Positions 1 to 15,334 of a stretch of DNA of 20,807 nt are shown here, piece after piece. The DNA comes from a virus, in the IMG/VR virus record IMGVR_UViG_3300032235_000564, positions 1-20,807 of that record. The stretch is one strand, 5' to 3'. The translations under genes were made by a program, and so were the position numbers. The notes beneath the pieces are model-generated. The model was not told the origin of the DNA. It saw only the letters and a list, made by a program, of their open reading frames with translations, and made no database searches. Position 1 is the first letter of the stretch. Each line of letters opens with the position of its first letter.

Positions 1-62
1 CTCCAACCCCAGCTCCAACCCCAGCTCCAACCCCAGCTCCAACCCCAGCTCCAACCCCAGCT
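1..62 (+). repeat. 12-bp tandem repeat encoding (PTPA)n
   Basis: Five perfect copies of the unit CTCCAACCCCAG fill bases 1-60, and the array probably continues to the left of the window. Directly after it comes a degenerate continuation that still encodes Pro-Thr-Pro-Ala-Pro-Ala. Because the unit is a multiple of three, copy-number change by slippage would lengthen or shorten the stalk without breaking the frame. The perfect identity at third positions suggests recent expansion or frequent turnover. Confidence 0.95.
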
Positions 63-197
63 CCAACACCTGCACCAGCATGTACTGTTGGAGCAATTTG
101 TAATGCCATCACTGATGAATGGGCATGTACAACTGATTATTATGTATATGATTCTAGCTGTAACTGTGTATTCAGCTATAGATTGCCACAATGCTAA
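3..197 (+). CDS. C-terminal fragment of a Pro/Thr/Ala-repeat protein with a Cys-rich tip
   Basis: The reading frame is open from the window edge to a TAA at 195-197, so only the last 64 residues are seen and the start lies outside. The visible part begins with a Pro-Thr-Pro-Ala repeat of about 20 residues, encoded by five identical 12-bp units. It ends in a compact domain of about 40 residues with six cysteines (ACT, IC, AC, SCNC, QC), a pattern that suggests three disulfides in an extracellular or virion-surface domain. A proline-rich stalk carrying a small Cys-stabilised head fits a tail or capsid appendage, but I do not recognise the family. It lies just upstream of a hydroxylase and a glycosyltransferase gene, so its prolines could be modified; that is inference. 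The reading frame is clear, the function is not. Confidence 0.75.
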   Translation, partial: PTPAPTPAPTPAPTPAPTPAPTPAPACTVGAICNAITDEWACTTDYYVYDSSCNCVFSYRLPQC

Positions 198-199
198 TA

Positions 200-208
200 T
201 GATATAAT
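200..208 (+). promoter_or_regulatory. Extended -10 promoter of the zinc-ribbon/oxygenase/glycosyltransferase operon
   Basis: A TGA followed by TATAAT at 203-208 matches an extended -10 element (TGnTATAAT). A start near 215 would give a leader of about 28 nt that includes an AAAGGGA Shine-Dalgarno at 228-234, eight bases before the ATG at 243. Unlike several other promoters in this window, this one leaves room for a ribosome binding site. No convincing -35 box was seen. Confidence 0.6.
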
Positions 209-242
209 TTGTTATAAAGATAATAGCAAAGGGATAATCTTA

Positions 243-479
243 ATGGAAGACCTTACACCATGGCAACAATATAAAAAAAATCTTGGAGAAACACGTCCAT
301 GGGATTTGTTAGACCCATCTGTTGAAAGAGCGTCTGATGAAAAAGCAGCTGAAAGATTTAGCATTTGTCAATCCTGCCCAGAGCTTGTAAAACTTTCAAA
401 GCAGTGTAAGAAATGTGGATGCTTTATGTTTTCTAAAACAAAATTAGAAAAGGCTACATGTCCCTTAGGAAAATGGTAA
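243..479 (+). CDS. Small Cys-rich zinc-ribbon-like protein, unknown function
   Basis: This is a 78-residue protein. The C-terminal half carries a CxxC pair (CQSCPE), then CKKCGC, then CPLGKW at the very end: six cysteines arranged like a zinc ribbon or a metal site. The N-terminal part is polar, with a PWDLL motif near residue 20. Similar small proteins ending in CP-x-GKW occur in marine and cyanophage genomes, to my recollection often near 2OG-Fe(II) oxygenase genes, but I know of no tested role. An AAAGGGA ribosome site supports the ATG at 243. Its stop overlaps the next start as TAATG, so it is probably translated together with the oxygenase that follows. It could bind zinc as an adaptor, or an iron-sulfur centre; the sequence does not decide. 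Confidence 0.85.
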   Translation: MEDLTPWQQYKKNLGETRPWDLLDPSVERASDEKAAERFSICQSCPELVKLSKQCKKCGCFMFSKTKLEKATCPLGKW

Positions 480-1075
480 TGGAAAAAAAAGAGTTAGCAC
501 CAGGAATAGTTGTTTATAAAAATGTGATTTCAGAAGACATTGATTTAGTTGATGAAATTGAATCTTCTGTTTCTAGTAAAGCAGTATCGTGGAACCCAGC
601 TTATGTTAAGTCATCTGGAGATAGTGAGCTAGATACTACAAAAAGAGATACGCTAACTATCGGGGTATCGTATTCTGAAAATCCAGAAATAGTATTGTCT
701 AATCCAACTACAGCATTTAATACATCACTGTCTAAGCTATTTTATGACAACTTTTCTATTATAGAAAATGATTACAAAAATGATTTTGGAATAGGTACTA
801 GTTGGCATGACTCGTATGGCATTTTAAAGTATGGAGTAGGACAAAAGTTTGTAAACCATATTGATGACCATCCAGATTATCACAGAAGAGTATCTTTTGT
901 ATATTACATAAATGATGATTATGATGGAGGAGAGATCAACTTTCCAAGATTTAATATTTCATATAAGCCTTCAAAAAATGAAATGATAGTATTTCCATCT
1001 ACATATGTATACAATCATTCTGTCAATGAAGTTACTAATGGAACTAGGTATGCTGTTGTTTCATGGGCAAAATAA
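479..1075 (+). CDS. 2OG-Fe(II) oxygenase, prolyl 4-hydroxylase-like
   Basis: This is a 198-residue enzyme of the 2-oxoglutarate/Fe(II)-dependent dioxygenase superfamily (P4H/PKHD type). Such enzymes hydroxylate a substrate, often protein proline, while turning 2-oxoglutarate and O2 into succinate and CO2. The iron-binding triad is intact: His127-x-Asp129 (NHIDD) and the distal His180 (YNHS). Arg190 in GTRY is placed to bind the 2OG carboxylate. The core strand motif INDDYDGGEINFP lies between them. I start it at 479, where ATG overlaps the preceding stop (TAATG) and TTAGGA lies eight bases upstream. The in-frame ATG at 458 would add seven residues and has no better ribosome site. The end overlaps the glycosyltransferase start by 13 bases, which ties the two products together. 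The substrate is unknown; the nearby proline repeat is a candidate. Confidence 0.9.
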   Translation: MEKKELAPGIVVYKNVISEDIDLVDEIESSVSSKAVSWNPAYVKSSGDSELDTTKRDTLTIGVSYSENPEIVLSNPTTAFNTSLSKLFYDNFSIIENDYKNDFGIGTSWHDSYGILKYGVGQKFVNHIDDHPDYHRRVSFVYYINDDYDGGEINFPRFNISYKPSKNEMIVFPSTYVYNHSVNEVTNGTRYAVVSWAK

Positions 1076-1962
1076 TCTTTATAAATATTGCAAGCTATCG
1101 TGATCCAGATCTAGTTAATACCGTTAGAAGCTGTTTCGAAAATGCAAATAATAAAGAAAATATCTTTTTTTCTATATTTTCTCAAGCAGAAGATTGGGAA
1201 CACCCAGACCTATTTTTTATTCCAGATAATCAAATAAGGTATCAAAAAGTTCATTGGTCAGAAAGTCTTGGTGTCTGTTGGGCAAGACTAAGATCTAGTC
1301 AGCCCATACTGGGAGATTTCTACTTACAGATAGATTCTCATTCTAGATTTGTATCAGGATGGGATGATTTAATAATTAATAATTTTTACTCTGCAAAAGA
1401 TTTTTGGGGGGACAGGATTATTCTTACAAATTACCCAGACCCATTTGAGATAGCTGAAGATGGAACAGATAATTTAATAAATTATAATGGTCTCAGAAAG
1501 ATAGAGGCAATCTGGCCAGACTCTTCAAACATATTGCAGGGAGACTCTGAGTGGCCACTTGTTGTAGATACTTTACATGGAGATGAGCAGTTCTATCTAG
1601 CAGGTGGAAACATGTTCTCTACAACAAAGCTTATTTCAGAAATACCATATGATGAAAATTTATATTTTATTGGAGAAGAGCCAACCTTGGCTATACGGGC
1701 ATATACTAGGGGAATTAGGCTAATCTCGCCAACAGTAAAATTTATGTACTCAAATTATAATAGAGAAAATTCAAAGAGACCTCTTCATTGGGAAGATAGC
1801 TCAAGATGGTGGAACCTAAACATAGAATCATTCAAAAGGATTAAGAGAGTTTTTGCTGGTGATCAGTCATTAGGTATTTACGGAATAGGGTCACCACAAT
1901 TATTTCTTCAATATCAAAAAATTATAGGCATTGATTTTTCAACTAAAGAAATTAATCCATAA
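1063..1962 (+). CDS. Glycosyltransferase of the GT60 / Skp1-GlcNAc-transferase-like family
   Basis: This 299-residue protein matches the Pfam 'Glycosyltransferase (GlcNAc)' family, CAZy GT60. The N-terminus has the signature ASYRDPDL (residues 9-16). Around residues 70-100 it has the WAR and YLQIDSHSRF block, in which Asp91-Ser-His93 replaces the usual DxD metal site. It then has GWD, an AGGN-F segment, a GEEPTLAIRAYTRG segment and a late HWED motif. The founding member is the Dictyostelium enzyme that adds GlcNAc to a hydroxyproline of Skp1 made by a P4H-type dioxygenase. Here the gene overlaps a P4H-type gene by 13 bases. It has no visible Shine-Dalgarno, so it relies on translational coupling. 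No signal peptide or membrane segment is seen, so it should act in the cytoplasm on a nucleotide-sugar donor. The donor sugar and acceptor are not shown by the sequence. Confidence 0.88.
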   Translation: MGKIIFINIASYRDPDLVNTVRSCFENANNKENIFFSIFSQAEDWEHPDLFFIPDNQIRYQKVHWSESLGVCWARLRSSQPILGDFYLQIDSHSRFVSGWDDLIINNFYSAKDFWGDRIILTNYPDPFEIAEDGTDNLINYNGLRKIEAIWPDSSNILQGDSEWPLVVDTLHGDEQFYLAGGNMFSTTKLISEIPYDENLYFIGEEPTLAIRAYTRGIRLISPTVKFMYSNYNRENSKRPLHWEDSSRWWNLNIESFKRIKRVFAGDQSLGIYGIGSPQLFLQYQKIIGIDFSTKEINP

Positions 1963-1973
1963 ATTTAATTTAT
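1959..1973. terminator. Short AT-only inverted repeat at the convergent gene junction
   Basis: The two stop codons face each other across two bases (TAA at 1960-1962, TTA at 1965-1967). They sit inside a perfect 7+1+7 inverted repeat, ATAAATT-T-AATTTAT. It has no GC pairs and would form only a weak stem, but its position between convergent genes makes a bidirectional stop or weak barrier possible. Confidence 0.3.
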
Positions 1974-2468
1974 AGATGCTACTGCTATCTTTTCAGTACT
2001 CCAGGCACTCCAGTTTTTTCCACCACTAGACATTTGGTATGCAATCTGAGCATTGATTAGTGGATTGTACAAATCTTCATTAGACTTTAGGCCATACTTC
2101 TTCCTACGATCAGGACCCATTGAGCCAGTCATATTAATCTGGAATAGTCCATAGCAGTTGCTAGACTTGTTTAGTGCCATTGGCCTATTGGTAGACTCAT
2201 AGAACACAATAGCCTTTGCCATCTTTAAACCATTACCAGAAAAGCCAGCTTGTCTAAGAATTGAGTCAAGTTCTTTCTCAGACAGCTGGGTCTTACTATC
2301 GTAATTAGCTTCCACAAGCTCATATGAGCCACGATCAAAGCTAATCGTATAATTCGTAACAATAAGGCTCTGAGTCGCTGAGAAATGATCCTCGTCGCTT
2401 TGAGACACATTTGCGGTAGTTAGACTAGCCACAAGACTTATGGTTCCCATAATTGCATATGTTTTCAT
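1965..2468 (-). CDS. Secreted lysozyme-like lytic transglycosylase
   Basis: This 167-residue protein belongs to the lysozyme/SLT superfamily. The first 20-odd residues form a signal peptide (Lys, then a hydrophobic run ending near TTANVS). A linker follows, then the domain from about residue 63. Glu91 in AIVFYESTNRP is in the catalytic position, followed by the family's YGLFQINM (106-113) and by LYNPLINAQIAYQM (133-146). The C-terminus carries the W-SAW segment typical of this fold. It would cleave the glycan strands of peptidoglycan after export. The ATG is two bases downstream of the stop of the NlpC/P60 gene and lacks a clear ribosome site, so it is probably translated by coupling. Lysis at the end of infection, or local wall opening at entry, are both possible. 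No holin gene is next to it. Confidence 0.88.
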   Translation of the reverse strand: MKTYAIMGTISLVASLTTANVSQSDEDHFSATQSLIVTNYTISFDRGSYELVEANYDSKTQLSEKELDSILRQAGFSGNGLKMAKAIVFYESTNRPMALNKSSNCYGLFQINMTGSMGPDRRKKYGLKSNEDLYNPLINAQIAYQMSSGGKNWSAWSTEKIAVASIN

Positions 2469-2470
2469 AA

Positions 2471-3088
2471 TTAATTTTCTATTACTCTGATAAAGGAAAT
2501 CTCACTTTGAGAAAACCATCCGTTTGTTAGTTCAATCTTTTCTGTTTTTGTACCTGGCTTTTTGGCATGAATTACCATACCATCACCAGCATAAATTCCA
2601 ACATGATAGTACTTCTTAGAGTTTAGGTGCTTGAAAGCAACAATGTCTCCAATTTGTGGGGTATCTACATAAAATCCAGCATTCTTAGCCTGCTTACTTG
2701 CAGAATGATCTAGCTCAACTCCAAGTCCTTCATAGAACCATCTAGTCATTCCAGAGCAGTCCCATCCAGACGTAGAAGATCCACTAAATACATACCAGGT
2801 TTTTCCTACATACTTTTCAAGTAGGTCAAGTCTTTTGCCTAGAGCTTCCTTGTTCTTCAGAAGCGACTTGTTGTATTCAGCTAGGTCTATCTTTTTTTGT
2901 AGTGCTTCAGCAGCTTCCTGCTCAAGTCTAGTTTGTGTCTTGCTTGTTTCAATGATTAAAGACATGGTCTCAATCGTTGGCTTTGTTGTATATTCAATTG
3001 TACTTAATGATTTATGGTCATCAGCCACGGTAGCTGCAGAACAGCCAAGTAATACTACTACCGCTCCTAGTATTGCAACTCTTTTCAA
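2471..3088 (-). CDS. NlpC/P60 peptidoglycan endopeptidase, predicted lipoprotein
   Basis: This is a 205-residue protein. The N-terminus is a lipoprotein-type signal with Lys-Arg, a hydrophobic stretch and LLGC at residues 13-16, so Cys16 is the likely lipidated residue. Residues 45-95 are charged and probably form a coiled coil. The NlpC/P60 domain follows from about 95 with the Cys-His-His triad in place: Cys111 (WDCSG), His162 (HVGIY) and His174 (IHA). Enzymes of this family cut peptide stems of peptidoglycan, often the D-Glu to diaminopimelate bond. The start is TTG at 3086-3088, supported by a full AGGAGG six bases upstream. It heads a two-gene - strand cassette with the transglycosylase, so together they would cut both glycan and peptide parts of the wall. 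Membrane anchoring is unusual for a phage endolysin. Confidence 0.9.
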   Translation of the reverse strand: MKRVAILGAVVVLLGCSAATVADDHKSLSTIEYTTKPTIETMSLIIETSKTQTRLEQEAAEALQKKIDLAEYNKSLLKNKEALGKRLDLLEKYVGKTWYVFSGSSTSGWDCSGMTRWFYEGLGVELDHSASKQAKNAGFYVDTPQIGDIVAFKHLNSKKYYHVGIYAGDGMVIHAKKPGTKTEKIELTNGWFSQSEISFIRVIEN

Positions 3089-9626: not shown

Positions 9627-10373
9627 ATGGCAGTAAATAAAAGAGCAGGTAAGAAGTCAGCAGCACAGAATGACTTTCTAGAGCCATTAGCACCTATTAA
9701 CGTAACCGCTACGGACGTAGGTACTAATAGGCCATTTAACGATGGTGCAGCTTCCGTATCTTTCTCTCTTCCAGCACTATCTCCAGCAGCGACCTCGTTT
9801 ACCGTTACAGCCACAGCAAATGGTCAGACTACTAGAACTGCTACTGGCTCTTCGTCTCCAATTGTTGTAGAAAATCTTGCCTCTAACGTTACTTATACAA
9901 TTAGCGTAACTGCTACAAATGCAGCTGGAACATCACCAGCATCATCTACCACTACAGTTACTGCAACCACAGTTCCTGCAACCATGTCAGCTCCAACAGC
10001 TACTGCTCAGACAAACCAGGACAAGCTTGACTGGACTGCTCCAGCAACTGGTGGTAAGGCAATTACTCTATACCGCTGGACATCTTCTGACAGCAAGACT
10101 GGTACAGTGAATTTTCCTGGTGTCACTACTAACATTACTCAGGAGGGTGGAACAGCTCAGACATACAAGATTCGTGCTGAGAATTCAAATGGTGTTGGTG
10201 TATATTCTGCTGATTCTAATAACGTAACCACACTATCTCCATTCTTCCCACCGTTCTTCCCACCGTTCTTCCCACCAAGCTTCCCATTCTTCCCAGGATT
10301 TGCACCACCGTTCTTCCCATTCTTCCCATTCTTCCCACCGTTCTTCCCAGGATTCCGTATACGATTTGTATAG
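9627..10373 (+). CDS. Virion protein with two fn3 domains and a Pro-Phe repeat tail
   Basis: This is a 248-residue protein. After a basic N-terminus (KRAGKKSAAQ) there are two fibronectin type III-like domains, at about residues 23-113 (ending TYTISVTATNAAGTS) and 116-200 (LDWTAPATGGKAITLYRW, TYKIRAENSNGVG). From residue 205 the chain becomes a run of about 40 residues made almost only of Pro and Phe (units PFFP and PFFPP with Gly/Ala/Ser breaks), then ends RIRFV. fn3 domains on phage virions are usually thought to stick to cell-surface carbohydrate. The Pro-Phe tail is hydrophobic, but its prolines make a membrane helix unlikely. AAGGAG supports the ATG. The next gene is a prolyl-hydroxylase-type enzyme, so this tail may be its substrate (inference). 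Confidence 0.85.
   Translation: MAVNKRAGKKSAAQNDFLEPLAPINVTATDVGTNRPFNDGAASVSFSLPALSPAATSFTVTATANGQTTRTATGSSSPIVVENLASNVTYTISVTATNAAGTSPASSTTTVTATTVPATMSAPTATAQTNQDKLDWTAPATGGKAITLYRWTSSDSKTGTVNFPGVTTNITQEGGTAQTYKIRAENSNGVGVYSADSNNVTTLSPFFPPFFPPFFPPSFPFFPGFAPPFFPFFPFFPPFFPGFRIRFV
10239..10350 (+). repeat. Degenerate 12-bp repeat encoding the Pro-Phe tail
   Basis: Units of the form CC[AG]TTCTTCCCA repeat about nine times, some broken by AAGC or GGATTT-type insertions. Like the (PTPA) repeat at the left edge, the period is 12 bp and keeps the frame. Confidence 0.85.
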
Positions 10374-10439: not shown

Positions 10440-11183
10440 ATGATAAATAATCCTTGGTTAACGAAAGACAGATCCGAAACAGACTCTAATAGAATGCCAG
10501 ATAGGCTTGCTAGAAACGGTATTACGGTATCTAATCCAGCACTTGGAATCAATATATACAATAATGCGATTAGCGAAAACTCTGTAATAGACATAATCAA
10601 CACTCTAGAAAGCAAGTTGGACGGTAGTGCACCACACTACTCTTGGCAAGGTGCAACAGTTACTGAGGCAGATGAAGTTTTAAGCTCTGTTAGAAATTGC
10701 GTTGACTTTAAAATGAACTCTGGCTCACTTGGCCCACTTGATGAAAGCAACAAGGACTTGTACAGAATACATGAGTCTGCGTTTAGATCTATCAAACCAT
10801 GCGTTGATGATTATGGTAGCTACTGGGGTGTCGGTGTTAATTACTATGAGGCATTTAATTTTGTCAAGTATGATGGTCCAGGAACACACTTTAAGATTCA
10901 TGCTGATCATGGTCCAGCATACGTAACTACAATATCGGTAGTTGCATATCTAAATGACGACTATGAAGGTGGAGAGCTTTATTTTCCAAGGTTCAATTTA
11001 ACAATTAAGCCAAAGGCTGGAGATGTGGTTGTATTCCCATCAACATATATCTATGAGCATGCATCTCAAGATATGATCTCTGGAAAGAAATATTGTATAG
11101 TTATTATGACAGACTACAATGATCGTGGTGGTTTGAGATACTTTAACTATAGAGATTTAGACCCAACAAAGATTACCTATTAG
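10440..11183 (+). CDS. 2OG-Fe(II) oxygenase (array copy 1)
   Basis: This is a 247-residue dioxygenase. The catalytic half starts near residue 130 with YYEAFNFVKYDGPGTHF. The iron ligands are His154-x-Asp156 (IHADHG) and His207 (YEHAS). The conserved core LNDDYEGGELYFPRF lies between them. The 2OG-binding position in SGKKY is a Lys (217) where the first oxygenase in this window has Arg; Lys is the residue used by classical prolyl 4-hydroxylases. The N-terminal 120 residues include VRNCVDFKM, shared with the next gene (YRDCVDFKF), which marks the two as a duplicated pair. It has its own leaderless-type promoter and lies 66 bases after the Pro-Phe repeat protein. It probably modifies a protein side chain; the substrate is unknown. 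Confidence 0.88.
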   Translation: MINNPWLTKDRSETDSNRMPDRLARNGITVSNPALGINIYNNAISENSVIDIINTLESKLDGSAPHYSWQGATVTEADEVLSSVRNCVDFKMNSGSLGPLDESNKDLYRIHESAFRSIKPCVDDYGSYWGVGVNYYEAFNFVKYDGPGTHFKIHADHGPAYVTTISVVAYLNDDYEGGELYFPRFNLTIKPKAGDVVVFPSTYIYEHASQDMISGKKYCIVIMTDYNDRGGLRYFNYRDLDPTKITY

Positions 11184-11192
11184 GAAGATAAG

Positions 11193-11894
11193 ATGGCTGA
11201 AGACAACATTCACGAAAGAATTCAAAACTTTTATAAGATTGACGAAATTACTTGGTCATCAGTAGAAGATCTTGGTAGCGGAATTATGGTATACCATGAC
11301 GTTCTACCAACTGAAATGGAAATCATAAGTAGACTTGAAAATGTTTTGTTAGATGAGTCAAACATGTACTCCTATCAAGAGGCTATGGTTGGCTATGGAA
11401 TGAAAATTCCAGAGTATCGTGATTGTGTAGATTTTAAGTTTAAGAAAACAGACATTGAACATGATCTTAGTGAAGAGTCTTTAAAGCTTCAGAAGCTTTG
11501 GGAAGATGTTTACTATAGACAACTACAGGCAGTAAAGCATTATTGCAAAATGTTCAATATTGGTGAGCTAAGGTATTGGGAGGCCATGAACTTTATTAAG
11601 TATGGTCCAGGTCAGCACTTCCAAGAGCACCACGATAATGGATACTCTTATAATTGTGTGCTTTCTGCAGTATCTTACCCTAACGATGATTATGAAGGTG
11701 GAGAACTATTTTTTAGAATCCAAAATCTAAATGTTAAGGCTAAAGCTGGAGATCTCTTCTTGTTCCCATCTAATTTTATGTATCCACATAGAGCTATGCC
11801 AGTAACTTCTGGAACAAAGTATTCCATCGTTACAATGCTTGATTACTCTGACAAATATCATAAACCAGAATTTTATATAGAAACAGGAAACTGA
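11193..11894 (+). CDS. 2OG-Fe(II) oxygenase (array copy 2)
   Basis: This is a 233-residue enzyme, the closest paralogue of the preceding gene. The N-terminus has a GSGIMVYHDVLP segment usual in this phage oxygenase group. The catalytic domain has YWEAMNFIKYGPGQHF, His146-x-Asp148 (EHHDNG), the core PNDDYEGGELFF and distal His199 (YPHRA). Lys209 (GTKY) is at the 2OG carboxylate position. An AGGAAG site lies just upstream of the ATG, nine bases after the previous stop, so the two are in one transcript. All metal ligands are intact, so it should be active. Target unknown. Confidence 0.88.
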   Translation: MAEDNIHERIQNFYKIDEITWSSVEDLGSGIMVYHDVLPTEMEIISRLENVLLDESNMYSYQEAMVGYGMKIPEYRDCVDFKFKKTDIEHDLSEESLKLQKLWEDVYYRQLQAVKHYCKMFNIGELRYWEAMNFIKYGPGQHFQEHHDNGYSYNCVLSAVSYPNDDYEGGELFFRIQNLNVKAKAGDLFLFPSNFMYPHRAMPVTSGTKYSIVTMLDYSDKYHKPEFYIETGN

Positions 11895-13343: not shown

Positions 13344-14027
13344 ATGGAAAATCAATATACTAATAATCACAACAGTAACCCTGTGTCAATAACACCATCT
13401 GGATTTTTTGGAAATAGCCCAGAAATGATCGGAACTCTTGAAAACTTTTTGACCGAAGAAGAGCTTCAAGCACTTAATGGCTTTATTCGTAACAATGAAA
13501 GCTGGGATGTAACTCAAACACACTATAATGAAGACGGAACTGTTATTTATGACTCTGGTTATTGGGATGGTCGTGTAGCAACTTATCCAACAATTAATAG
13601 CACTAGCCCAGAGACAGTAGAGCTAATCCAGTCAATTGTTAAAAGGCTAAAGATTGAAATCGATAAATTTTTTAGTGTTGATGCCACAGCAACCTCTCCT
13701 GCCCTTGTTAGATGGCTTCCTGGGAACTTACAGATGCCACACGCAGACAAAGAGCTTCATGATGGAGATAACGCTGGAAAGCCAAATGATTTCCCATGGT
13801 ACGATATTGCAACAATTGTGTACTTAAATGATGACTATGAAGGCGGAGAGCTCTACTTTCCAAATCAAGATATTAAGTTTAAGCCAAAGCGTGGAGCTGC
13901 ATACTTCTTCCCTGGAGATATGAACTATATTCATGGAATTACTGAAGTTACTAGTGGAATTAGATATACATGTCCATTTTTCTGGACAATTCTTTCTCAC
14001 AAAAATTCGGAGGTAGACAATGTCTAA
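13344..14027 (+). CDS. 2OG-Fe(II) oxygenase (array copy 3)
   Basis: This is a 227-residue dioxygenase. It opens with an Asn-rich tail and a FLTEEELQALNGF helix. The iron ligands are His133-x-Asp135 (PHADKE) and His197 (YIHGI). Arg207 (GIRYT) is in the 2OG-binding position. The insert between HxD and the core (DGDNAGKPNDFPWYD) matches a shorter form in the next gene (DNHGEPNAF), which marks them as a pair. The core is LNDDYEGGELYFPNQ. The Arg-type site and this insert set the pair apart from copies 1 and 2. It has its own leaderless-type promoter. Confidence 0.88.
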   Translation: MENQYTNNHNSNPVSITPSGFFGNSPEMIGTLENFLTEEELQALNGFIRNNESWDVTQTHYNEDGTVIYDSGYWDGRVATYPTINSTSPETVELIQSIVKRLKIEIDKFFSVDATATSPALVRWLPGNLQMPHADKELHDGDNAGKPNDFPWYDIATIVYLNDDYEGGELYFPNQDIKFKPKRGAAYFFPGDMNYIHGITEVTSGIRYTCPFFWTILSHKNSEVDNV

Positions 14028-14745
14028 TGTTATTAACAAAGATAGCTTTATTTACTACAAGGATGAGCCAATTGAAAATAGTATTCTTGGCATTAAAGAC
14101 AATAGGATTGTAGAGATTCCAAACTTTGTAAGCCCAGAAGATGCAAAAAATATGATCAGCTACTTTGAGGCCAAGGCTGAAATGTGGGGAGATATTGCTT
14201 TCTATGGATCATCTGGAATGGGGCTGCAGGCAAATGATCCAATGCTTGCAGACTATAACCTTTCTGGCGATTTCTTTGACAATCTTCGTGAACAGTTTAA
14301 GGCTCATGTAGAAGATGTCTTTGGCAGAGAAGTTAGGGCTAACACTTCTCATGCTCAAAAGTGGGATGTTGGAGGGTTTGCTAATCCACACTCAGATAAT
14401 TCTGATAATCATGGAGAACCTAACGCATTTGAGATTAATAAGTATGTTGCGATTTTATATTTAAATGGTAATTATGAAGGTGGAGACCTGTATTTTCCAG
14501 ATCACAATATCTCCTTCAAGCCAACTCCGTATGCCCTAATTACTTTTCCTGGTGGAGTAGAGAATATTCATGGCGTTACAGAAATTACTGCTGGCACTAG
14601 ATATACCATGGTGTCTTTCTGGGACTTTGCTGACGTAGAATATTCTGAGGAAAAAAAGTCTTGGTGGGAAGAAGAAACAAGAAAAGTTAGAGAGCAGCAG
14701 GCTAAGCAAAAAGAAGAATGGGCAAAGGGTAATAGACTTGCCTAA
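14020..14745 (+). CDS. 2OG-Fe(II) oxygenase (array copy 4)
   Basis: This is a 241-residue enzyme with iron ligands His124-x-Asp126 (PHSDNS) and His184 (NIHGV), Arg194 (GTRYT) for 2OG, and the core LNGNYEGGDLYFPDH. It ends in a highly charged C-terminal tail of about 30 residues (Glu/Lys/Gln/Arg-rich, probably helical) that the other copies lack. The start overlaps the end of the preceding gene by eight bases but has its own strong GGAGG. The tail may bind a partner or the substrate. All catalytic residues are present. Confidence 0.88.
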   Translation: MSNVINKDSFIYYKDEPIENSILGIKDNRIVEIPNFVSPEDAKNMISYFEAKAEMWGDIAFYGSSGMGLQANDPMLADYNLSGDFFDNLREQFKAHVEDVFGREVRANTSHAQKWDVGGFANPHSDNSDNHGEPNAFEINKYVAILYLNGNYEGGDLYFPDHNISFKPTPYALITFPGGVENIHGVTEITAGTRYTMVSFWDFADVEYSEEKKSWWEEETRKVREQQAKQKEEWAKGNRLA

Positions 14746-15334
14746 TATTATGAACCCTACAGTTTTTGCAGAAAAGATATTTTATTACGAGTCTGTAATA
14801 AAAGATCCACATGAGCTAGTATATGCAATTGAATCATCTGATGAATATTTATCTGACACATCATTAATTTCTAACTGGCACACATGGTCTTCAAGCGATG
14901 ATTCGTATGTTTTTGGTAAAAGAAAAGCAACAAATGAAGATAAGTTTGATGCAGCACCAGAAAAAGTAAAGCTTGTGTATTTATTGCTAAAGGATACGCT
15001 TTCTAAGTATGGAGAAGACTATGCTAAGTCTATTGGCGTAATTCTTGGCACACAAATGCCAATTAGCATAAGTAAATATTTTACAGGGACATCTATGGGG
15101 CCACACACAGATTCTTCTCCAAACCCTACAACTGAGCACATTTCTGCTGTGCTATATCTTAATGATAACTACTCTGGTGGAGAAATAGCTTTTCCAGATC
15201 ATGGGGTAGTTATTAAGCCAACTGCTGGCAGTTTGATCATGTTCCCATCGACACCACCATTTTTCCATGAATCCAGAGAAATTACTAATGGAACCAAGTA
15301 TATGTCACCAGCCTTTTGGCATTTATTGGTTTAG
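14738..15334 (+). CDS. 2OG-Fe(II) oxygenase (array copy 5)
   Basis: This is a dioxygenase of 198 residues if it starts at TTG 14738, or 194 from ATG 14750. AAAGGG lies eight bases before the TTG. The TTG form overlaps the previous gene by eight bases, as seen elsewhere in this cluster, so it is slightly preferred. Iron ligands are His123-x-Asp125 (PHTDSS) and His177 (FFHES), with Lys187 (GTKYM) in the 2OG-binding position and the core LNDNYSGGEIAFPDH. The N-terminus (FAEKIFYYESVIKDPHELV) resembles the shorter oxygenase near the left edge. It closes the array. Confidence 0.86.
   Translation: MPNIMNPTVFAEKIFYYESVIKDPHELVYAIESSDEYLSDTSLISNWHTWSSSDDSYVFGKRKATNEDKFDAAPEKVKLVYLLLKDTLSKYGEDYAKSIGVILGTQMPISISKYFTGTSMGPHTDSSPNPTTEHISAVLYLNDNYSGGEIAFPDHGVVIKPTAGSLIMFPSTPPFFHESREITNGTKYMSPAFWHLLV

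Follow-up and report, generated by a model that had tools for sequence, protein, structure and literature searches.

The window analysed here is a whole 20.8-kb IMG/VR fragment (virus record IMGVR_UViG_3300032235_000564; 20,807 nucleotides) that opens with the end of a gene for a protein with Pro-Thr-Pro-Ala repeats, (PTPA)n, cut at the contig end, followed by genes for a small zinc-ribbon protein, a prolyl-4-hydroxylase-type (P4H) 2-oxoglutarate (2OG)-Fe(II) oxygenase and a glycosyltransferase of family GT60. We propose, with a probability of roughly 0.55, that these genes are a cassette by which a tailed phage, with a portal of actinobacterial type, modifies its tail stalk: P4H would hydroxylate prolines within the (PTPA)n of the stalk protein and GT60 would place sugar on its threonines. 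The sugar would be an alpha-linked N-acetylhexosamine, most likely N-acetylglucosamine (GlcNAc) drawn from UDP-GlcNAc, and its acceptor most likely the threonines of the PTPA repeat, as for mucin-type and Trypanosoma cruzi GT60 enzymes; the outcome may be a stiff, sugar-coated stalk, with a putative benefit in stiffness or in protease or receptor shielding. Genes, ligands, folds and a conserved linkage to Pro/Thr-repeat tail proteins are the sequence-based observations, from which we infer catalytic activity, the identity of the sugar and the residue modified. The window portal is 48.8% identical to that of Streptomyces phage LukeCage, which makes the host probably actinobacterial in type.

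The stalk, the zinc ribbon and the two enzymes

The initial annotation had described the (PTPA)n protein end, the zinc ribbon, a P4H with intact ligands, a GT60 with ASYRD and QIDSH signatures and a 13-base overlap between the last two genes, all of which we find in place (Table 1). The N-terminus of the stalk protein lies past the contig edge, and the (PTPA)n is encoded by a perfect 12-bp repeat of 5.6 copies running off the contig end. Its reading frame is secure because another phage (L359) has at this locus a PASTA-type stalk protein whose C-terminus is 70% identical to the last 40 residues (over 40 amino acids, E 1e-18); L359 carries a Gly/Ser/Asp linker in place of PTPA and lacks both P4H and GT60. 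A full-length homologue from a sister phage (L338, 11403-12155) combines a PASTA domain (9.8e-8) with (TP)n tracts, and we regard the stalk as a tail protein because the stalk of L371 matches the minor tail protein family phrog_8780 (3.7e-16). The protein is phage-encoded, as first supposed; it belongs to the tail module, and sister phages have full homologues of it. The zinc-ribbon gene is a constant member of the cassette, standing between stalk and P4H, about 240 bases upstream of P4H, in nearly all loci with P4H orthologues.

All expected P4H ligands are present: H134, D136 and H187 of the HxD...H iron triad, and R197, the basic 2OG residue; across 13 homologues the triad is invariant and position 197 is Arg or Lys in all. 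In the AlphaFold2 (AF2) model (predicted local distance difference test, pLDDT, 87) the top 50 PDB fold matches are all prolyl hydroxylases, the best being the prolyl hydroxylase (PHD) of the Dictyostelium Skp1 pathway (6t8m, 7e-12), followed by Pseudomonas putida P4H and an algal P4H (3gze, with a (Ser-Pro)5 peptide); a profile match to bacterial P4H reaches 3e-14. The modelled fold is that of a prolyl hydroxylase, not of the DNA-base or AlkB type, and the linkage to Pro-repeat proteins described below predicts peptidyl proline as its substrate.

The GT60 protein scores 140.6 bits against PF11397 (family cut-off 21), and its gene overlaps that of P4H at positions 1063-1075. The first 48 PDB entries matched by its AF2 model (pLDDT 89; predicted template modelling score 0.90) are all mucin-type polypeptide N-acetylgalactosaminyltransferases (pp-GalNAc-T); both AF2 models rest on shallow alignments (30 and 13 rows). 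The window GT60 has the ASYRD and QIDSH signatures, the latter with the DSH metal motif at 91-93, but it is not fully canonical: a C-terminal His, probably the third metal ligand, which is kept in 93 of 99 phage GT60s, is replaced by Ser230 in the window and by Thr in L371. Loss of this His was considered as a mark of hydroxyproline (Hyp)-specific GT60s and dropped: P4H-linked GT60s carry His, Ser, Thr or Ala there.

Linkage to Thr/Pro-repeat proteins

Relatives were found by pattern-based scans, with the best 80 loci kept per scan. Orthologues of P4H (55-78% identical) occur on at least 156 IMG/VR stretches, and the best 80, which were read, form 36 clusters when grouped at 95% identity; none was confirmed among genome contigs. 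A Pro-repeat protein is encoded upstream in every one of the 33 clusters where the upstream open reading frame (ORF) reaches at least 100 amino acids: 32 of these proteins have 23-129 Thr-Pro, and the other is a fragment with Phe-Phe-Pro repeats; the remaining three clusters have too little upstream DNA and were left out. The gene after P4H typically begins 12 bases before the P4H end in most clusters, the offset seen in the window. It may be a GT60, an NAD epimerase, a GT61 with a cupin part, a radical SAM protein or a 190-amino-acid protein (phrog_2954; no Pfam match) judged by sequence to be 2OG-oxygenase-like. Nine of the 36 clusters have a GT60 no more than 2.1 kb downstream of P4H, and overlapping P4H/GT60 gene pairs recur in L339 and L341, such that the gene association proposed from the window is also seen in other phages.

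Further enzymes follow P4H in L425 (9301-10917), L448 (8606-9646) and L169 (6606-9332), namely a GT61 with cupin, a GDP-mannose-type epimerase and a GT11-like protein (by eye), and in one cassette subgroup P4H and GT60 flank a radical SAM/SPASM gene (L391, 5440-6384; L440, 6581-7516).

Comparison at a single locus separates the two enzymes by repeat type. With the neighbouring NlpC gene as anchor, 26 relatives were obtained, in which P4H accompanies all five Thr/Pro-repeat stalks (window, L354/L355, L356, L371, L366) and none of 11 stalks of other types (p 2e-4). Neither P4H nor GT60 is found with sister stalks that lack Thr/Pro repeats, such as those with FFPFFP, SFPSFP or Gly/Ser linkers; the exceptions are the Thr-rich, Pro-poor stalks of L370 and L362 (the latter seen in part), which have GT60 and no P4H. 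The flanking NlpC is 97% identical between the window and L349-L353, from which the cassette is absent, so repeat and enzyme have been gained or lost together; L354, with NlpC at 82%, has stalk and P4H. The phage of L354 (G126) shares a portal 98% identical to that of the window and has the 190-amino-acid protein in the GT60 slot, while L371 carries, in all, a Thr-Pro stalk, zinc ribbon, P4H, the 190-amino-acid protein, a weak nucleotide-sugar-transferase match, a methyltransferase, an epimerase and also a GT60 with 55% identity to that of the window. With P4H tied to repeat stalks in the orthologue clusters and absent beside non-repeat sister stalks, the comparison indicates that P4H and GT60 very probably act on the tail stalk.

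A scan of viral contigs with the single GT60 sequence gave no relatives; an alignment query gave more than 500 in IMG/VR, of which 80 were kept. P4H lies within 10 kb of GT60 in two of these 80 loci, and a Thr-Pro repeat ORF is found in 36 (within 6 kb in 31), as against 0/30 loci picked with a random 16-mer and 0/80 portal-anchored loci of window relatives. Among 32 long GT60-bearing phage contigs, two have PF13640 and 17 have (TP)4 tracts (the reversed pattern occurs in two). Of the 176 (TP)4 matches, 143 lie in the GT60 locus (about 10 kb), where length alone would predict 28.6, and most are on the same strand as GT60. Conversely, contigs picked for a (TP)8 tract contain PF11397 in 10/50 cases versus 0/30 random contigs (Fisher p 0.011; the sets differ in lengths). 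These figures give a direction rather than an exact significance, as matches overlap and some contigs are near-copies. Two cultured jumbo phages, Xanthomonas phage XacN1 (L002) and Stenotrophomonas phage RAS14 (L003), have GT60 with several Thr-Pro tracts, and in XacN1 a carbamoyl transferase gene follows GT60.

The scarcity of P4H around GT60 (78 of 80 loci lack it) had suggested that the two are unlinked, an idea dropped in view of the nine P4H-anchored clusters with GT60 downstream. Recurrent adjacency in phages, together with bacterial GT60-P4H fusions, suggests from genome context that the two enzymes are functionally linked.

In bacterial genomes, single large ORFs with one to four GT60 domains and P4H occur in L471, L472, L478, L487, L492 and L512 (alphaproteobacterial, Rickettsiales bins) and also in L463, L501 and L513; SAR86 and other gammaproteobacterial genomes (L479, L483, L486, L489, L515, L533) have a P4H gene divergent from an adjoining GT60 gene.

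A second site in the window repeats the association of P4H with a Pro-rich tail protein. Five further P4H genes at 10.4-15.3 kb, absent from the initial annotation, follow an FN3 tail protein with a Phe-Phe-Pro-Pro (FFPP)-rich C-terminal tail; the region also holds a DUF6065 gene and a phrog_7084 gene. At least two nearby P4H genes accompany 8/8 FFPP tails (window included) versus 0/10 other tails (p 2e-5, with near-copies partly removed and the two-gene cut chosen after the data were seen). In relatives, the FFPP tail is gained and lost along with the P4H cluster, and the FN3-FFPP protein is likely a second P4H substrate. Four FN3 homologues (L266, L267, L280, L283) have a Hint/intein-type-looking C-terminal tail (by eye) in place of FFPP.

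Table 1. Positions of the cassette genes and of the second P4H cluster in the window.
Feature	Position	Strand	Evidence or remark
Pro-Thr-Pro-Ala repeat tail-stalk protein, C-terminal 64 amino acids, Cys-rich knob at end	3..197	+	12-bp repeat, homologues
Small Cys4 zinc-ribbon protein	243..479	+	phrog_13558 4e-16; DUF6171-like 1.8e-5, just below cut-off
Prolyl-4-hydroxylase-type 2OG-Fe(II) oxygenase	458..1075	+	PF13640 4.5e-17; internal start near 479 possible
GT60 (GlcNAc-transferase family) glycosyltransferase	1063..1962	+	PF11397 1e-40; phrog_24687 4e-35
FN3 tail protein, Phe-Phe-Pro-Pro-rich C-terminal tail	9627..10373	+	fn3 4e-7; phrog_31 central tail fibre J 1e-4
Second P4H-type oxygenase, immediately downstream of FFPP protein	10440..11183	+	PF13640 6.7e-12
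Third P4H-type oxygenase	11193..11894	+	PF13640 9.5e-14
Fourth P4H-type oxygenase	13344..14027	+	PF13640 2.6e-8
Fifth P4H-type oxygenase	14020..14745	+	PF13640 2.2e-7
Sixth P4H-type oxygenase	14738..15334	+	PF13640 1.1e-11

Two short genes on the opposite strand (1965-3088, -) separate the cassette from the tail genes. One product looks by eye like a lytic transglycosylase and the other is NlpC/P60-like (phrog_329 minor tail protein, 2.7e-23); the two may act as a pair in lysis or entry.

The sugar acceptor and competing readings

The initial annotation proposed a two-step glycosylation of Hyp: P4H would make Hyp in PTPA and GT60 would put sugar on it, as in the Dictyostelium Skp1 pathway, where the prolyl 4-hydroxylase PhyA is followed by the GT60 enzyme Gnt1 (PMC3515798, PMC8724618). 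A stalk modification cassette survives from that proposal; its other part, a GT60 directed at Hyp, does not follow, given that T. cruzi members of the family add GlcNAc to Thr (PMC8724618, PMC3769586), so that GT60 is not a Hyp-specific family, and that most phage GT60s next to Thr-Pro or Thr-rich stalks occur without P4H. For the GT60 closest to that of the window (L454, 57% identity) the gene order is (TP)n protein, 140-amino-acid gene, zinc ribbon and GT60, and no P4H was found in its genome bin (0.8 Mb, which may be incomplete). In a quick tree the GT60s of L362 and L370 group with the window GT60 with support 99. Because L454, L362 and L370 lack P4H, as do all but two of the 32 long contigs, and because the fold is of mucin type and T. 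cruzi GT60s act on Thr, we favour sugar on Thr over Hyp by about two to one, with proline hydroxylation as a separate modification. Also at odds with a Hyp acceptor are the sister phage G126, which pairs stalk and P4H with a different oxygenase at the position of GT60, and the GT60s beside TP repeats in other phages, usually without P4H.

There is nonetheless a case for Hyp, which we consider possible though distinctly the less probable acceptor. It draws on the 13-base overlap, whose offset most orthologue clusters keep, on the downstream GT60s and overlapping pairs described above, and on the closeness of the P4H fold to the Dictyostelium Skp1-pathway hydroxylase. In addition, P4H-linked GT60s are concentrated in one clade (18/25 rows; four changes versus 16.9 when shuffled, again in a quick tree), bacterial single polypeptides join up to four tandem GT60 domains to P4H domains (e.g. 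L478, L512, L472), and plant arabinogalactan proteins (AGPs) have alternating Ala-Pro/Thr-Pro as their classic module for Hyp glycosylation (PMC5266747). In the window pair GT60 could depend on prior proline hydroxylation, although related GT60s occur without P4H. In a wider form of the same reading, held to be just as unlikely, a PhyA/Gnt1-like Hyp-glycan pathway on the stalk would sit within an interchangeable enzyme set (P4H, GT60, GT61, epimerases and further oxygenases) that yields mucin- or AGP-like rods.

Two further readings dispense with the stalk as substrate. That P4H and GT60 target phage DNA, a host surface glycan or a host protein, their tail location being due to chance, would agree with the oxygenases and glycosyltransferases of other phages that modify DNA or host glycans, with the interpretation of cyanophage P4H-like genes as repair enzymes (PMC2984593), and with bacterial P4Hs that can act on EF-Tu (entries 4iw3, 5v7y). 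It is made improbable by the folds, those of a prolyl hydroxylase and a polypeptide GalNAc-transferase, and by the close association of the enzymes, at two separate places in the genome, with the kind of repeat in the adjoining tail protein; DNA hypermodification in particular was set aside, as folds and linkage indicate protein. Slightly less probable still is hitch-hiking, in which tail genes are swapped as blocks and repeats and enzymes travel together with no enzyme-substrate relation. The cassette is indeed modular, its post-P4H slot holding many kinds of enzyme (GT60, 2OG-like protein, epimerase, GT61, radical SAM), yet the enzymes track the repeat: Thr-rich stalks have GT60 only, Thr-Pro stalks P4H, FFPP tails P4H clusters, and Gly/Ser linkers neither, a match that holds across stalk proteins of differing domain make-up.

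Against our preferred reading, P4H acting on the prolines and GT60 on the threonines of the stalk, several points must be weighed. With Ser230 in place of the near-invariant His, the window GT60 may be an altered or weak enzyme; in those phages that bear P4H, Hyp may instead receive the sugar; the complete architecture of the window stalk, its own copy being truncated, is predicted from relatives; and the related phages and loci are not independent samples, those of the same-locus comparisons being small.

Known systems and biological meaning

The enzymes belong to known families, and the system they may form would bring to a phage tail the kind of modification known from mucins or hydroxyproline-rich glycoproteins. 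The Dictyostelium Skp1 pathway shares both enzyme families and provides the best match to the window P4H model, but it modifies a single Pro of a cytosolic ubiquitin-ligase subunit, whereas the phage counterpart is a Pro/Thr-repeat tail protein and GT60 is often found without P4H. With the mucin alpha-GlcNAc transferase of T. cruzi (GT60) and animal mucin pp-GalNAc-T (GT27), the window system shares GT60 assignment, predicted fold and a Thr/Pro-rich acceptor region; they differ as Golgi enzymes without a hydroxylase partner, and the lectin domain of GT27 is absent from the window GT60. Plant and algal hydroxyproline-rich glycoproteins (AGPs, extensins) offer Ala-Pro/Thr-Pro modules together with P4H, the algal enzyme (3gze) being among the top fold matches; their Hyp sugars, by contrast, are galactose or arabinose added by other glycosyltransferase families, and some phage cassettes carry GT61 and GDP-mannose-epimerase-like genes.

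Virus-encoded enzymes of these kinds have precedents. The chlorovirus PBCV-1 has a collagen prolyl hydroxylase (5c5t) of the same fold, though in a eukaryotic algal virus and with a collagen-like substrate. We know of no GT60 linked to it. In mycobacteriophages Che8, Corndog and Myrna, phage-encoded glycosyltransferases decorate capsid and tail-tube proteins (Freeman et al. 2023, as cited in PMC12363180 and PMC12619734); the two citing papers place the sugars at the C-termini of capsid and tail-tube subunits and mention neither a hydroxylase nor a repeat stalk. Neither proline hydroxylation of a phage tail protein nor a phage GT60 system was found in the literature searched, outside which most subscription journals lie.

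The linkage described here offers phage P4H-like genes, which are common in cyanophages and have been suggested to be repair enzymes, a testable substrate in Pro-repeat tail proteins. It also suggests that phages may bear mucin-like or AGP-like glycoprotein rods, which would bear on adsorption, on shielding and on the evolution of the GT60 and P4H families.

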